64,000 nt of DNA from Caldifarciminota bacterium (lineage in GTDB: Bacteria > Hydrothermota > Tepidihabitantia > SM23-42). Under the pieces are notes generated by a model. That model was not told where the DNA came from, did no database searches, and saw nothing but the letters and a program-made list of their open reading frames with translations. Position 1 is the first letter of the stretch, and each line of letters starts with the position of its first letter. A program made the position numbers and the translations under genes. Of the stretch, positions 19,926-26,672 are shown one piece after another. The stretch covers positions 1,519,718 to 1,583,717 of the forward strand of contig CP070705.1 in assembly GCA_020349965.1 (NCBI GenBank), given 5' to 3'.

Positions 19926-20861
19926 ATGGCATTCAATGCACAGAATTTCGTCGTAGAGAAAACTCGGGACATAAGGTCCCAGGTGGGGAACGACACTACG
20001 TTGTGCGCAACGAGCGGTGGGGTCGACTCGATGGTCTGCGCCTTCCTGGCGCACCGCGCTCTGGGCAGGAACCTGATCGCTATATTCATCGACGACGGTC
20101 TCATGCGCGAAGGTGAGCCGGAGAAAGTAACTTCCCTGCTACGGAGCCGCGGAATCCGAACCGTGCTCGTCCTGGCCGCCGACGATTTTTTCAAAGCCCT
20201 GAAAGGAAAGGAAGACCCGGAGGATATGCGTAAGGCTTTTCGCGACACATTCTACAAAACGCTGGGCAAAGCAGTGCGCAAGCACAGGGCAAAATACCTG
20301 ATTCAGGGCACGATCGCAGCCGACGTGATAGAGACAAAGGGCAAGATAAAATCACAGCACAATGTGTTGGCGCAGATCGGAATAAACCCGCGCCGTTATG
20401 GATTGAACGTCATTGAACCTCTGGTAACGCTATTCAAACCCGACGTGCGTAAGGTGGGAAAGGCATTGAGGCTGCCATCGACGATTCACCAGCGGATGCC
20501 GTTCCCCGGGCCCGGGTTGGCAACGAGGGTGGTGGGCGAAGTCACTCCGGCAAAGGTCAGGTTGCTGCGGAAGGCAACGTCGATCGTCGAGCGTGAGATG
20601 AAGAGCATCAAGGCATTCCAGACATTTGCGGTTCTGCTCGATGACCGGGCGACCGGCGTAAGGAAGGGCAAGCGATCATTCGGAAATATCATCGTCGTGC
20701 GCAGTGTTCAGTCAAAGAACGCAATGACTGCGACCCCGACCCGCGTTCCTTATGATGTTCTCGAACGCATACAGAAGAAGATCACGAATCAGATCCCGGA
20801 AGTGACAAAAGTTTTGTATGACATATCACCAAAACCGCCAAGTACGATAGAATACATATAG
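19926..20861 (+). CDS. guaAB: GMP synthase, ATP pyrophosphatase subunit (subunit B), stand-alone
   Basis: Converts XMP to GMP using ammonia delivered by a glutaminase. The 311 residues comprise only the ATP pyrophosphatase and dimerisation domains: FVVEKTRDIRSQVG, P-loop SGGVDS at 30-35, FIDDGLMREGE, IQGTIAADVIE, KSQHNV, FPGPGLATRV and the C-terminal PPSTIEYI. The glutamine amidotransferase domain that begins normal bacterial GuaA is absent, and no such gene is nearby, so the enzyme should be of the two-subunit type typical of archaea. Own promoter and strong ribosome binding site. Confidence 0.9.
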   Translation: MAFNAQNFVVEKTRDIRSQVGNDTTLCATSGGVDSMVCAFLAHRALGRNLIAIFIDDGLMREGEPEKVTSLLRSRGIRTVLVLAADDFFKALKGKEDPEDMRKAFRDTFYKTLGKAVRKHRAKYLIQGTIAADVIETKGKIKSQHNVLAQIGINPRRYGLNVIEPLVTLFKPDVRKVGKALRLPSTIHQRMPFPGPGLATRVVGEVTPAKVRLLRKATSIVEREMKSIKAFQTFAVLLDDRATGVRKGKRSFGNIIVVRSVQSKNAMTATPTRVPYDVLERIQKKITNQIPEVTKVLYDISPKPPSTIEYI

Positions 20862-21132: not shown

Positions 21133-21891
21133 ATGAAGAAGATTGCAATATGCAATCAGAAAGGCGGTGTCGGCAAGACCGCGACCGCAGTGAATCTTAC
21201 GGCCGGCCTCTCTCTGGCCGAGAAGAATGTTCTGCTCGTCGACATCGACCCCCAGGCCAATTCCACGAGCGGCCTCGGTATCGACTACAAAACCCTTGAG
21301 AGATCAATCTATGACTGCCTCTTTGAGCCGTCCATGGTCAGGGAGACTATCATCAAGACAAAATGGCCGAGGATGTCGATCGTGCCTTCGACGACGGATC
21401 TAGCCGGCGCCGAGATCGAACTAATTAGTGAGAATGAACGCGAAGGAATGCTGAGGAGAGTTCTTTCCATGATCGCCTATGAGTATGATTTCGGCATCAT
21501 CGATTGCCCTCCGTCGCTCGGTCTGTTGACGGTGAACGCCCTCGTTGCGAGCGACAGCGTTTTGATTCCGATCCAATGCGAATATTATGCCTTGGAAGGA
21601 CTCGAAAAATTACTCAAGACGATCAAGGTGATAAAGAACGGACTGAACAAGAATCTTATCATCGAAGGGATACTTCTGACGATGTACGATGCACGGCTGA
21701 ACCTCGCCAAGGATGTGGTCGAAGACATACAGGCTCACTTTCCGGAGGTTGTTTTCAAAACAGTGGTTCCGCGTTCGGTACGCATCGCCGAGTCGCCATC
21801 GCACGGTAAATCGGCCATACACTACAGTATCGTATCATCCGGATCTCAGGCATATCTGAATCTTACGAGGGAGATTTTGAACCATGCGTAG
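21133..21891 (+). CDS. parA: Chromosome-partitioning ATPase ParA (Soj)
   Basis: ParA/Soj Walker-type ATPase of 252 residues. Deviant Walker A KGGVGKT at 10-16, LLVDIDPQANSTSGLG (Walker A' region) and FGIIDCPPSLG (Walker B), length and sequence typical for chromosomal ParA without an N-terminal HTH. It binds DNA nonspecifically as an ATP dimer and moves ParB-parS complexes. Overlaps parB by 8 bases. Its neighbourhood (mnmG about 5 kb upstream) resembles the origin region of many bacteria. Confidence 0.94.
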   Translation: MKKIAICNQKGGVGKTATAVNLTAGLSLAEKNVLLVDIDPQANSTSGLGIDYKTLERSIYDCLFEPSMVRETIIKTKWPRMSIVPSTTDLAGAEIELISENEREGMLRRVLSMIAYEYDFGIIDCPPSLGLLTVNALVASDSVLIPIQCEYYALEGLEKLLKTIKVIKNGLNKNLIIEGILLTMYDARLNLAKDVVEDIQAHFPEVVFKTVVPRSVRIAESPSHGKSAIHYSIVSSGSQAYLNLTREILNHA

Positions 21892-22732
21892 ACGTGCACT
21901 CGGCAAAGGCCTGGAAGCTTTAATACCGACAAAGGAAAAGGAGATCTTCCAGGAAGGTTACCGCATGGTACCGGTCGCTAACATCAAGAGGAATCCGTAC
22001 CAGCCAAGGGCACCGCTCGAGGAGCCGGAACTGAAGGATCTCGTGGCTTCTATCAAAGAGAAAGGCATCATCGAGCCTTTGATCGTCAAGCGCAGCGGCG
22101 ACTACTTTGTATTGGCGGCAGGCGAGAGGAGATTGAATGCGGCTCGGATAGCAGGCTTGAAGGAAGTACCCGTGGTAATCAAAGACCTGAGCGACCAGGA
22201 GTTGCTCGAAATTGGTCTGATAGAGAATCTCCAGCGCAAGGATTTGAATCCTGTCGAAGAAGCCTTGGCCTACGATCAGCTTAACAAGAAGTTCCAGCTG
22301 ACCCACGACCGCATCGCCGTTCTGGTTGGGAAGGAGCGTTCTACGATAACGAATGCGGTGAGACTGTTGGCTCTGCCAAGAAAGGTCATCGAATATCTTA
22401 AGAAGGGTAAACTCAATGCTGGCCATGCGCGTGCCCTGTTGGCATTGAGCGATGAAATGCAGATACTAGATGTTGCCGACCGTGTTGTCCGGGACGATCT
22501 TTCGGTTCGTCAGACTGAAGCGGTCGTTCGTCGAGCAGGTGGCAAACCGCGCATCAAACTGGCCAAAGGGAAGGAACCGAATATCGTCATGCTCGAGGAA
22601 GAACTATCAAAACTGCTGCGGACAAGGGTGAATATCGACTGGAAGAAGAATCGCGGTTCGATAGTCATTCATTGTCCGAGTGTAAATGATTTCAACCGCA
22701 TTTACGAAAATCTAAAAAAGCTTAGGCACTGA
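21884..22732 (+). CDS. parB: Chromosome-partitioning protein ParB (Spo0J)
   Basis: ParB/Spo0J CTPase and DNA-binding protein, 282 residues. N-terminal RRALGKGLEALIP, CTP-binding domain with NPYQPR and AAGERRLNAARIAGL, the IENLQRKDLNPVEEALAY block, helix-turn-helix DRIAVLVGKERSTITNAVRLL, and a C-terminal dimerisation domain. Co-transcribed with parA. No consensus parS (TGTTTCACGTGAAACA) was found in the window. Confidence 0.94.
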   Translation: MRRRALGKGLEALIPTKEKEIFQEGYRMVPVANIKRNPYQPRAPLEEPELKDLVASIKEKGIIEPLIVKRSGDYFVLAAGERRLNAARIAGLKEVPVVIKDLSDQELLEIGLIENLQRKDLNPVEEALAYDQLNKKFQLTHDRIAVLVGKERSTITNAVRLLALPRKVIEYLKKGKLNAGHARALLALSDEMQILDVADRVVRDDLSVRQTEAVVRRAGGKPRIKLAKGKEPNIVMLEEELSKLLRTRVNIDWKKNRGSIVIHCPSVNDFNRIYENLKKLRH

Positions 22733-22795: not shown

Positions 22796-22824
22796 TTGAC
22801 TTGATAACAGTTCTTAGTTATAAT
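22796..22824 (+). promoter_or_regulatory. Promoter of the Roadblock/AAA+/TPR cluster, leaderless type
   Basis: TTGACT (22796-22801), 17-base spacer, TATAAT (22819-22824), 8 bases to ATG 22833. It separates this cluster from parAB transcriptionally. Confidence 0.68.
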
Positions 22825-22832
22825 TTTTAGAT

Positions 22833-23240
22833 ATGGAGATGCCTGAAGTAATAGTAATATCCAAGAACAAATACGAAAAACTCGGACAATTACTTGATGA
22901 CTTTTGTAGTCAAGCCAACACGGTTTGGGCTCTTTTCTCTACTCTCGCTGGCCAGCTCGTTGTCCAGCGTGGTTTTGTCGATTCATTCGATGTATTATCC
23001 ATCAACGCCGTTGCCTGCAGCATCTTTAATTCAACGATGGAACTGGCGCACATTGTTGGTGACAAGAAATTTTCCAGTTTCTTACAGGAAGGGGTGAGTG
23101 CAAGTATGTACTATACGTGCATAAATGATGATTATCTGTTGGTGACTCTCTTCGATGATCGCACGTTGCCCGGTGTGGTCAAAGTTGCATCCGAAGACTT
23201 TTGTGCCGAGGCGGTAAGAATACTGGAAACTGAAGGATGA
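22833..23240 (+). CDS. Roadblock/LC7 domain protein
   Basis: Protein of 135 residues formed of a single Roadblock/LC7 (longin-like) domain: a first helix LLDDFCSQANTVWAL, the strand pair FSTLAGQLVVQRGF, the helix with NAVACSIFNSTMELA, and MYYTCINDDYLLVTLFD. This is the fold of MglB and other small-GTPase regulators. No GTPase (MglA-type) gene is adjacent. The stop overlaps the downstream AAA+ gene by 4 bases, so the two products are likely made together and may interact. Function otherwise unknown. Confidence 0.8.
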   Translation: MEMPEVIVISKNKYEKLGQLLDDFCSQANTVWALFSTLAGQLVVQRGFVDSFDVLSINAVACSIFNSTMELAHIVGDKKFSSFLQEGVSASMYYTCINDDYLLVTLFDDRTLPGVVKVASEDFCAEAVRILETEG

Positions 23241-25051
23241 AAAAAAGGTACGCTTTCGACAATTTTATTGTTCACGACGGTAACAGAGTTGCATTTACTG
23301 CGGCAAAAAAGATCGTTGATTTTCCCGGGGAGGTATTCAATCCGTTCTACATCTATGGAGCAGATGGGTCCGGCAAGACACACCTCCTTACTGCATTGAG
23401 TAGTGCCCTCAGCGAAAAATCAAAGGCAGATTTCATGACGGCGCAGGAGTTCGAGAAGGATCTCGGCAAGCGAAAGAAGTATGATTCCCCCCTGATCGTT
23501 GACGATATCCATGAGATCAGCGAAGGTCGTAAGAGGAAGTTGAGGGAAATTGTTGAAGATGCACTGAGTAATAATGTCCAATTGTGTTTCTCGTCACTGG
23601 TGGCACCGCAAAAGGTGAGGGGATTCAGTCAGAAATTAAGTTCTATGATGGATAGTGGCTTGGTATGTGAGATGGCCGCGCCGACAGAGGCGGCCCGGAT
23701 CGAAATGATTCGCAAGAAGGCAGATGAGGCAGGGATCATCCTTGCCGATGAGACCCTGGAGGAGTTAGCGCGGATTGCATTCGGATCAGTAGGGGAAATC
23801 GAGAGTATGATAAACCGCCTGGTCACTTATTCTTCGCTCGGCAGACTGGAAATCGATGCGAACAGCATCGCCTTACTCCTCAGAGAATTTTATCCGGGAA
23901 AGGCAGTACCCAGGACGCCATCTCTGCTAAAGGAATGCCAGAAAGATGATATTTACAGTCTTGAGGATGTCGAGTCGCCCGATTTGCGGAAAGAGTATGA
24001 GAGAAGGATTGCAGTATGGGAGACGAAAGGTTTCGATGTTTCGACACTGAAAAGAGATCTTTCAGTAGATTCGCTCGAGCTTCGCCGTATATATCACGAG
24101 TACGTGGAGCGCGCGAAGAGGATGATCGAACTCCAGCACCTCTTTGCCCATGTCGATCGCGAACGGGCGCCGGGTGAGGGTCTGAAGATCGACTCGATGA
24201 TATTCAATCCGGCTATGGTTGATGATGTGGAATCATTGCTCAAGGCATTCGATGAATGCCGCGAAAAGGGGCGAGAATACCGGAGGTTTAACGAGTTCAT
24301 CATAGGTTTCTGCAATAAGTTAGTGTGGGATACGTACCATGATAAAGTTCTGGATAATCTCGGTGCCAACAATCCTTTCATAATCTTCGGCAGTAAGGGA
24401 ACGGGCAAATCACATTTTCTGGAAGCGGTTTGCGACGACCTGATATCACGGAATAAGAGCGTGCTCTTTGGAGATCTCGCCTGCCCGGCGGATACAGACT
24501 TCACGGCTGCAGTCGACAAATATGACGTCGTGATCATTGACAATCTTGATGCTATTTTGAATGCTACGGAGAGTGTGATCAATGATATCGGTGAACTCAT
24601 CGATGCATTCAGAGAAGCATCGAAGCAGGTTATCATTGCGTCGCGGTCGATGTCAGACGAGATGTCTCTACCGGTAGCTTTGGAGGGTATATTCGACGAT
24701 GGTATTGTTGCAGTTCTTGAGAAGCCTTCGGCCGATGTGGTCAACGAATATATGAAACAGCGCATGCCAGCGGATGCCACTGGTGGCATTGAACAAGGTT
24801 TTCCTGAGTTCGATTCGTTTTACGATATAGCGTATTATCTGCGGAGTATTAGTGATGATTCATCGGCGGTCGTACCTCTGGGACTGCCTGGTGAAGATGA
24901 TATGGCGCAGCCCGGTGCTATGGGCGAGAGGATAGTTTTCCCGACAAAGGTTGATGAGAAGGGACGACCGTCTATGCGCATCGAGATAACGATTGGCGGA
25001 AATTTCATTATGCCGGAAGTTGCCGGTGAATTGATCGAGGAGCAATACTGA
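23237..25051 (+). CDS. Protein with two tandem DnaA-like AAA+ modules
   Basis: 604 residues. Module 1 (about 5-215): DnaA-type entry box YAFDNFIVHDGN, NPFYIYG, Walker A GADGSGKT (41-48), Walker B LIVDDIH (86-92). A helical linker (about 230-345) follows. Module 2 (about 350-510): entry box RRFNEFIIGFCN, NPFIIFG, Walker A GSKGTGKS (385-392), Walker B VVIIDNLD (431-438). The DnaA DNA-binding domain IV is absent; the tail (510-604) is acidic and then beta-like. So it is not the replication initiator but an ATPase of related architecture. Coupled to the Roadblock gene by a 4-base overlap. The function is not known to me. Confidence 0.8.
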   Translation: MKKRYAFDNFIVHDGNRVAFTAAKKIVDFPGEVFNPFYIYGADGSGKTHLLTALSSALSEKSKADFMTAQEFEKDLGKRKKYDSPLIVDDIHEISEGRKRKLREIVEDALSNNVQLCFSSLVAPQKVRGFSQKLSSMMDSGLVCEMAAPTEAARIEMIRKKADEAGIILADETLEELARIAFGSVGEIESMINRLVTYSSLGRLEIDANSIALLLREFYPGKAVPRTPSLLKECQKDDIYSLEDVESPDLRKEYERRIAVWETKGFDVSTLKRDLSVDSLELRRIYHEYVERAKRMIELQHLFAHVDRERAPGEGLKIDSMIFNPAMVDDVESLLKAFDECREKGREYRRFNEFIIGFCNKLVWDTYHDKVLDNLGANNPFIIFGSKGTGKSHFLEAVCDDLISRNKSVLFGDLACPADTDFTAAVDKYDVVIIDNLDAILNATESVINDIGELIDAFREASKQVIIASRSMSDEMSLPVALEGIFDDGIVAVLEKPSADVVNEYMKQRMPADATGGIEQGFPEFDSFYDIAYYLRSISDDSSAVVPLGLPGEDDMAQPGAMGERIVFPTKVDEKGRPSMRIEITIGGNFIMPEVAGELIEEQY

Positions 25052-25088
25052 TATATGTCGATGCAATGAAAGTGATAAGGGGCATTTT

Positions 25089-26672
25089 GTGGCGATAAAA
25101 GGTTCACTCGTTGAGGCATCACTTCCCGAAGTAATACAGCTTCTTTCATATTCCCTTAAATCAGGGTGCCTGTCAGTCACCGACGGTAAAAATCTGGGCA
25201 ACATTTTTCTTGACGAAGGTAAAATAGTCTATGCTACGATTCTCAAACGCAAGGCACGTTTGGGTGATTCCATGCTTGAGAAACAACTTGTGCAACATGA
25301 TATTCTTAAGAGCGCGCTTGCGATACAGAAAAAAAATAAGGGGAAGCGGCTCGGCGAAATACTAGTAGAAATGGGTGCAATATCGCAGACGGTCCTCGAT
25401 AAAGAATTGAAGCAGCAAATTGAAGAGGCAATACACACCATGCTCTCCTGGAAAGAAGGGTATTTTAATTTTGAAGTGGATTTGTTGCCATCATCGACGG
25501 AGCAGACGGTATCGCTGTCTTCTCAGGACCTACTGCTCGGAGGCGCACGGCTCATTCAGGACTGGCAGAAGATAGAGGCAATGATGCCTCCGCGAGAAAC
25601 GGTTCTTGCCGCAAGAGAAAATATGCATGGCTTCGATCTGACTCCCACCGAGGAGAAAGTACTATCGCTGGTGGATGGTGCTAGTACTATCGATGAAGTG
25701 ATCAAGGAATCGAAGCTCGACTACCAGGAAGCATGCAAGGCCGTCTACGTGCTGCTCGTTTCTGGTCTAGTCGAGAAGCCGAAACAGCCGACGGAAAAAG
25801 GAATTGGCGCAGCCGATATCTATGAATACAAGACATCTGGGCTCACATATTTCCATAGCGCGCGGTACGATGAAGCTGAAATAGAATTCGAAAGGGTACT
25901 CCACTTCGAACCCGATGACGCAGAAGCTCACTTCTACCTGGGTCTGATCGAACTGAAGCGTCATAACGGCGACGCGGCGAAGGATCACCTGGAAAGAGCA
26001 ATGGCAGAAGGCAGGAGGGTTTCGGCACTGATCGACATCGGTTATCTCTGCAACCGGCTGCGCTTGTTCGACGAGGGTGTCGAATACCTGAACGAGGCGC
26101 GTGCGATTGAACCAGATAATGTGAAGGTACTGCTGAATCTTGGTATAATCAATTACAACAGGGGTGCTTCTGCACAGGCCGCCGACGATTTCGCACGGTG
26201 TATGCGTTCTTCCGATACGATTGTTACGCCATTCACTTACCTGTCCGCCATTCACGTCGGTAACAATGATGTGCAACAGGCCGTTGAACTTCTCACTGAA
26301 GCAGTGGATCGATTTCCAAGATTCTTGGCGTTCAAGAACAATCTAGGATTGCTGTACGAAAGTATCGGACGAGATGAGGATGCTGAGAATCTCTACCACC
26401 AGGCTCTTTCGATACAACCCGACGATAAGATCGCCTTGAGGAATCTTGCGGACCTCTATTATCGATCGGCAATCTACGGTGCAGCGCGCGAATGCTATGA
26501 ACGGATCCCGGAGAGCGAACGAGATGTCGCGACACTATTGAATCTTGGACGCTTGTATCTCCTCAAAGGCGAAAGCGACCGTGCCATCGTTCAATGGCAG
26601 CGTGTTCTCGAACTGAACCCCGGGGACGAGAGTCTTGGCAGGGATATCGAAATCCTCAGCACTTGGGATTAG
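25089..26672 (+). CDS. DUF4388 (PATAN-like) and tetratricopeptide-repeat protein
   Basis: 527 residues. The N-terminus (about 1-130) is a DUF4388 domain: IKGSLVEASLPEVIQLLSYSLKSGCLSV, IFLDEGKIVYA, and the tail LKQQIEEAIHTMLSWKEGYFNFE. A winged-helix-like segment (about 185-235, LTPTEEKVLSLVDGASTIDEVIKES) follows, then about eight TPR units (245-527) ending in QWQRVLELNPGD. DUF4388 proteins occur beside Roadblock/GTPase and gliding or pilus regulators in several phyla. GTG start at 25089. Probably the third gene of the 22833 operon (37-base gap). Confidence 0.82.
   Translation: MAIKGSLVEASLPEVIQLLSYSLKSGCLSVTDGKNLGNIFLDEGKIVYATILKRKARLGDSMLEKQLVQHDILKSALAIQKKNKGKRLGEILVEMGAISQTVLDKELKQQIEEAIHTMLSWKEGYFNFEVDLLPSSTEQTVSLSSQDLLLGGARLIQDWQKIEAMMPPRETVLAARENMHGFDLTPTEEKVLSLVDGASTIDEVIKESKLDYQEACKAVYVLLVSGLVEKPKQPTEKGIGAADIYEYKTSGLTYFHSARYDEAEIEFERVLHFEPDDAEAHFYLGLIELKRHNGDAAKDHLERAMAEGRRVSALIDIGYLCNRLRLFDEGVEYLNEARAIEPDNVKVLLNLGIINYNRGASAQAADDFARCMRSSDTIVTPFTYLSAIHVGNNDVQQAVELLTEAVDRFPRFLAFKNNLGLLYESIGRDEDAENLYHQALSIQPDDKIALRNLADLYYRSAIYGAARECYERIPESERDVATLLNLGRLYLLKGESDRAIVQWQRVLELNPGDESLGRDIEILSTWD

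Follow-up and report, generated by a model that had tools for sequence, protein, structure and literature searches.

A DnaA-like tandem AAA+ protein encoded with MglB-family and PATAN-TPR proteins in candidate division WOR-3: a probable polarity module for type IV pili

Introduction

The closest described counterparts of the locus reported here are the MglA-MglB-RomR/SgmX-FrzS polarity system of Myxococcus xanthus together with Frz, the cyanobacterial PATAN response regulators (PixG, PilG and TaxP2) and the replication ATPases DnaA and Hda. SgmX-type tetratricopeptide repeats (TPRs) bind MglA-GTP (PMC7519303, PMC11580455), and the pocket of MglA takes the acidic C-terminal helix (Ct-helix) of MglB and probably, as a chimera experiment indicates, a helix of RomR as well (PMC6785124). 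PATAN (DUF4388) domains bind the pilus motor PilB in cyanobacterial members (PMC10519157), and MglA and MglB genes near PATAN genes have already been described (PMC4316618). This study concerns a three-gene cassette in a 64,000-nucleotide stretch of DNA (the window; positions 1,519,718 to 1,583,717 of contig CP070705.1), part of the one-contig 2.3-Mb genome of a Caldifarciminota bacterium whose named congeners belong to candidate division WOR-3 (Stahlbacteria; NCBI phylum Caldifarciminota). The cassette encodes a Roadblock protein (Rbl), a tandem DnaA-like AAA+ protein (tDnaA) and a protein that joins a PATAN domain to TPRs.

WOR-3 and M. xanthus have in common MglA GTPases, an MglB-family Roadblock protein, TPR/PATAN adaptors, pilus ATPases and Che genes; however, the WOR-3 operon centers on a DnaA-type AAA+ protein, and PATAN and TPRs are fused in a single protein. 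In the literature, covered here in part, we met no report of a DnaA-type ATPase that serves a polarity system based on a small GTPase instead of replication. Assignment of the cassette to polarity and pili is well supported, and we place at roughly 0.6 the probability that its products form the center of a polarity module of the MglA/MglB type which controls type IV pili, with tDnaA as an ATP-binding scaffold.

Results and Discussion

Organization of the cassette

The three genes lie on the forward strand under one leaderless, sigma-70-type promoter (22796..22824), directly 3' of parAB, as the first-pass annotation of this sequence had proposed. TTGACT at 22796 is separated by a 17-nt spacer from TATAAT at 22819 (11/12 matches), and the ATG of Rbl starts 8 nt past the -10 box. 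Rbl (135 aa, 22833..23240) and tDnaA (604 aa, 23237..25051) share the 4-bp overlap (ATGA) already described at the start of tDnaA, and the DUF4388(PATAN)-TPR protein (527 aa, GTG start) follows at 25089..26672. The same leaderless promoter stands just ahead of the Roadblock gene in 16 of 16 members of the order compared, regardless of the upstream gene, which varies; the promoter is therefore a property of the cassette and not of parAB.

Distribution and gene neighborhoods

Genes for tDnaA were found in 55 of the 147 genomes of the phylum (WOR-3/Stahlbacteria; Caldifarciminota), at about one gene each; the sample consists of metagenome assemblies, and this is the one phylum searched in depth. 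A search of GTDB genomes with the Roadblock profile, using strict patterns, returned 19 loci, all from WOR-3/Stahlbacteria, while tDnaA itself was searched within the phylum. The homologues are not isolated genes: the three-gene unit is constant across the order, with parB, mglA-2 or rsmB alternating upstream, and the DUF4388-TPR gene lies directly 3' of tDnaA at every inspected locus where the contig continues. The operon runs on into cheR-cheD-cheB-TPR-IMPase in most of the order. Ten genomes of the window's family carry mglA-2 immediately upstream of the Roadblock gene. Other families show the arrangement pilT(-accC)-mglA-tDnaA-DUF4388-cheR-cheD-cheB-TPR, with pilT upstream in several of them, and one genome (G027) has cheA, cheW and cheY upstream of the unit. 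Overall, 30 of the 55 genomes, drawn from eight families, have mglA no more than 5 kb from tDnaA, often overlapping it, and 41 of the 55 have cheR no more than 6 kb away; the remaining 14 are mostly members of the window's genus or contig ends.

The same association is seen at the level of whole genomes. MglA is encoded in 54 of 55 genomes with tDnaA compared to 42 of 92 without it (Fisher p 2e-12, uncorrected for kinship), and the sole tDnaA genome lacking MglA (G022) is incomplete. FlhA, a marker of flagellar and type III export, was searched for and found in none of the tDnaA genomes. Of 61 genomes examined for T2SSE-type pilus ATPases, 27 contain tDnaA, and every one of these 27 encodes such ATPases; pili are therefore the likely output. 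The MglA proteins linked to tDnaA have a basic C-terminal helix. The MglA tree contains three clades and, as its root is not fixed, does not decide which MglA was the ancestral partner.

Two variant loci were observed during these comparisons. In family f21 (L169:12577-14397, L141/L142), a protein of about 606 aa from no identified family follows cheR in place of CheD/CheB. Genome G028 (C2:208597-211535, L085) has a single mglB followed by a tandem array of four mglA genes, one copy of which contains an in-frame TGA, and belongs to a family without T2SSE pilus ATPases.

Architecture of tDnaA

Module 1 of tDnaA (aa 1-219, 23237..23893) matches Bac_DnaA (Pfam, 1e-34), aligns along its length to DnaA domain III (PDB 8btg, E 1e-58) and is matched in structure by DnaA (Foldseek, 8bv3, E 1e-14). 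Its entry box, DnaA-type Walker A (G41-T48) and Walker B (D89 D90), box VII and lid are recognizable. Module 2 (aa 350-540, 24284..24856) is a homologue of module 1 (hhalign 99.9%, E 1e-35), and the structural model shows it as another alpha/beta P-loop domain. The module is degenerate, with Walker A kept, a Walker B that reads D-N in the order and no Arg finger in any homologue, and it has been lost from two congeners and from two further families. The reading of tDnaA as two DnaA-like AAA+ modules lacking domain IV, the DnaA-box helix-turn-helix, thus agrees with the profile comparisons: DnaA models end with domain III (105-339/437; 112-360/446), and the second module, for which another fold had been considered, is AAA+. 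A gene for DnaA proper is present separately in the same genome.

By the family tests applied, tDnaA is neither DnaA nor Hda, as it scores 176.6 bits against the DnaA equivalog TIGR00362 (cut-off 343.9) and 118 bits against the Hda model TIGR03420 (cut-off 194.8). As we read the alignment, the region corresponding to the initiator-specific motif (ISM) of DnaA is short, as it is in Hda. The sequence starts MKKRYAFDNF and contains no QLSLPL-like motif, the N-terminal clamp-binding motif of Hda. The protein also differs from both ATPases in having a degenerate AAA+ module in addition to the first, a helical domain of a new kind and an acidic tail, and in its polarity and chemosensory gene neighbors.

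The helical domain (about 95 aa; aa ~240-335, 23954..24241) lies between the modules and contains two invariant motifs, W..KGF (W261..KGF266) and LFxP (LFxP325). Searches of Pfam, NCBIfam and PDB gave chance-level matches at best, placing it in no known family. This domain is what defines tDnaA: it occurs once per genome and solely in tDnaA, apart from an artefactual copy in the window's own genome (see below) and a marginal extra match in genome G113. Module 2 is followed by a disordered linker, in which an LGLPGE motif is conserved, and by an acidic tail at the C terminus (24875..25048); the AlphaFold2 (AF2) model includes a short C-terminal helix. The tail ends ELIEEQY, follows the pattern ELIxExY/F and is retained even by single-module homologues without module 2. 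The possibility that it acts as a CheR-binding pentapeptide was ruled out, since the tail is kept in a genus without CheR and its position 2 is non-aromatic in the order. One variant, an 885-aa tDnaA with a long C-terminal extension (L158; G070 C63), lies beside thiamine genes and without CheR.

Rbl and the PATAN-TPR protein

Pfam reports no Roadblock family for Rbl. The Rbl family profile matches M. xanthus MglB over its full length (PDB, E 6e-17), and an AF2 model with a mean predicted local distance difference test score of 90.7 has M. xanthus MglB as its best PDB chain (Foldseek E 2e-12, template-modelling score 0.89). By profile and predicted structure, Rbl is a divergent MglB-family member, an MglB homologue with the MglB-type Roadblock/LC7 fold, and an MglA partner is encoded in the genome and adjacent to Rbl in relatives. 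Compared to the M. xanthus protein, Rbl ends after the Roadblock helix and lacks the acidic Ct-helix associated with guanine nucleotide exchange factor (GEF) function, which WOR-3 MglB1 keeps (..EEEIDKLFG). Asn37 and Arg98 have been reported as needed for the GTPase-activating protein (GAP) activity of M. xanthus MglB (PMC11016934); the corresponding positions in Rbl are A and D, and Arg98 is kept in six of nine WOR-3 MglB1 proteins. Compared by description, the M. xanthus MglB paralogue MglC is likewise an MglB-fold protein that is probably no GAP itself, but Rbl is encoded with a DnaA-like ATPase. Within the genus, Rbl proteins are 85-92% identical, compared to 45-54% for tDnaA.

The third protein joins DUF4388 (8.7e-31; PF14332, 106.9 bits against a cut-off of 25) to a TPR array, as had been recognized from the sequence. 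Its DUF4388 domain contains tandem MshEN-like, 24-residue motifs for cyclic di-GMP (c-di-GMP) at aa 57-80 and 87-110 (25257..25418), which are matched by the NCBIfam model NF053729 (46.5 bits, cut-off 38). Following the definition in PMC5013675 (two 24-residue RLGxx..Q motifs with a short spacer), the pair has a spacer of 6 and one Gly replaced. PixG, PilG and TaxP2 share the PATAN domain and its chemosensory and type IV pilus context, whereas here PATAN is joined to TPRs, contains the MshEN-like motifs and has no receiver domain.

The window's genus

Members of the window's genus keep PilB- and PilT-type ATPases, and no CheR and no CheW/CheA domain was found in them. Two MglA GTPase genes lie away from the cassette, including in the window's own genome, where a remote MglA had been sought, and MglB1 adjoins MglA1. 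The Roadblock/TPR cluster that lies beside the tDnaA unit in relatives stands apart near pilT in this genus. In the window's own genome, this cluster (L035, ~C1:747570-751190) consists of genes for a TPR protein (791 aa), a TPR/Roadblock fusion (310 aa) and a small Roadblock protein (100 aa); pilT, accC and a biotin-carrier gene lie close by. In other families the TPR/Roadblock proteins of this cluster adjoin cheA/cheY or the tDnaA unit.

Walker A and B of module 1 are intact in all 7 congeners and in 19 other members of the order. In contrast, the Arg finger and the sensor-2 Arg are each present in 0 of 7 congeners and in 19 of 19 members of the rest of the order; the window's tDnaA departs from DnaA in having M137 and G186 at these positions. 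Outside the order, the Arg finger is kept in 8 of 17 homologues.

A second tDnaA copy in the same genome (C1:276537, about 90-91% identical) was rejected as a paralogue, since it sits in pieces of about 1.2 kb between 100-N gaps. The surrounding region of this 'complete' chromosome (L034, C1:270000-284000) looks like a scaffolding artefact, with a tDnaA fragment from a related strain.

Proposed mechanism

From the homologies, gene order, residue states and co-occurrence set out above we infer a role for each protein, a set of interactions and a link to pili. It is probable that a replication-type ATPase has been reused to steer pili, because tDnaA has lost the DNA-binding part and shares an operon with MglA/MglB-type proteins, a pilus-motor adaptor and, in most cases, chemotaxis genes. 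The cassette may have been inherited from a phylum-wide chemosensory operon. Rbl would act as an MglB paralogue whose partner GTPase is MglA-2, the product of a gene that adjoins the Roadblock gene in relatives but lies at another site in this genome. MglA-GTP would mark a pole and, by analogy with SgmX (PMC7519303), could be read by the TPR region of the DUF4388 protein, the putative output adaptor, whose PATAN domain may engage PilB as it does in cyanobacteria (PMC10519157); the MshEN-like insert may sense c-di-GMP, adding a further level of control. As a scaffold derived from DnaA domain III, tDnaA would bind ATP between the GTPase switch and the adaptor, joining the two through its middle domain and acidic C-terminal peptide in an assembly state set by ATP binding. 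CheR, CheD and CheB from the same operon would supply adaptation in most relatives, and the loss of both Che input and catalytic arginines in the window's genus would leave a simpler module that binds nucleotide, probably without cycling.

The acidic tail of tDnaA could, by analogy, fill the MglA pocket that takes the MglB Ct-helix (PMC6785124), an idea consistent with the absence of that helix from Rbl and with the basic helix at the C terminus of the tDnaA-linked MglAs. Confidence in docking of the tail to MglA is low, and it is possible that the tail is bound by the TPRs of the next gene's product. Taken further, these features suggest a core polarity regulator of DnaA descent that would dock into the allosteric pocket of MglA with a tail acting in trans, replace the helix lacking in its MglB partner, and couple the GTPase switch and chemosensory input together, dependent on ATP, to a c-di-GMP-sensing PATAN-TPR pilus adaptor; we consider this fuller scheme doubtful.

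Several observations weigh against the proposed polarity module. The cassette locus of the window's genus contains no MglA, Che or PilT genes. Rbl may not act as a GAP, as both residues reported as essential are missing, and the tail is not a clean complement to the Ct-helix, since the tDnaA-adjacent Roadblock protein of genome G072 carries a C-terminal extension. The notion that Che loss led to arginine loss is unsupported and cannot by itself account for it, because genomes G070 and G011 (79% complete), in which CheR was undetected, keep the catalytic arginines. In addition, the tDnaA model has a predicted template-modelling score of 0.40, making its domain arrangement unreliable, and the support is computational throughout and concerns uncultured organisms.

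Alternative explanations

The position of the cassette directly after parA (21133-21891, forward strand) and parB (21884-22732, forward strand) raises the question of whether tDnaA regulates replication or segregation, acting like Hda or competing with DnaA as an ATPase linked to parAB and oriC, with the Roadblock and DUF4388 proteins as accessories. Module 1 is nearest to DnaA domain III, dnaA is about 33 kb away in this genus, and Soj/ParA acts on DnaA in Bacillus. However, parAB adjoins the cassette in the window's genus alone and was rejected as a functional partner on that ground, and the cassette carries a separate promoter. The mglA, che and pil genes that neighbor it outside the genus and the missing DNA-binding parts disfavor this role, as do the short ISM region, the absent Hda clamp motif and scores below the DnaA and Hda cut-offs; we regard it as very improbable. 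Of the polarity, segregation or pilus-positioning module with a DnaA-type oligomer that the first-pass annotation had envisaged, polarity and pilus positioning are upheld by relatives in which the genes sit with mglA, pilT and cheR-cheD-cheB and by the two MglA genes of the window's own genome, while segregation, which rested on parAB, is not. The oligomer remains uncertain, with Walker motifs kept but the initiator-specific insertion shortened and both arginines gone in the genus.

In all 19 other order members, module 1 has intact Walker motifs, an Arg finger and the sensor-2 Arg, a set that would also suit a catalytic AAA+ remodeller that dismantles MglA-MglB or PATAN-PilB by ATP hydrolysis, with only binding kept in the window's genus, and the stacked AAA+ pair resembles tandem-ring remodellers (Yta7, Rix7 and p97 in Foldseek searches by domain). 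No pore loops and no substrate-binding N domain were identified in tDnaA, module 2 is without an Arg finger throughout and absent from some homologues, and fewer than half of the homologues outside the order keep that of module 1, leaving remodelling an unlikely explanation. Less likely again is a role confined to chemosensory adaptation, with no connection to pili, in which tDnaA and the DUF4388-TPR protein would tune a Che pathway to transcription or c-di-GMP. The cheR-cheD-cheB genes that come next in most genomes, the upstream cheA, cheW and cheY of G027 and the MshEN-like motif favor such a role; however, mglA and pilT recur as neighbors, and retention of all three genes in a genus without a CheR or CheW domain disfavors a purely chemosensory function.

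If the proposed polarity module for pili is correct, replication-initiator ATPases would join ParA and Ras-like switches among the tools of bacterial cell organization, an uncultured phylum would gain a testable pilus-steering system, and an uncharacterized domain of about 95 residues would be placed in a functional context. The natural series of homologues, from full enzymes with Che genes through arginine loss without Che to deletions of module 2, makes the role of ATP cycling testable.

Elsewhere in the window, positions 19926-20861 contain an open reading frame for GMP synthase (311 aa) that starts at the ATP-pyrophosphatase part without a preceding glutaminase domain, the split, archaeal-type arrangement.

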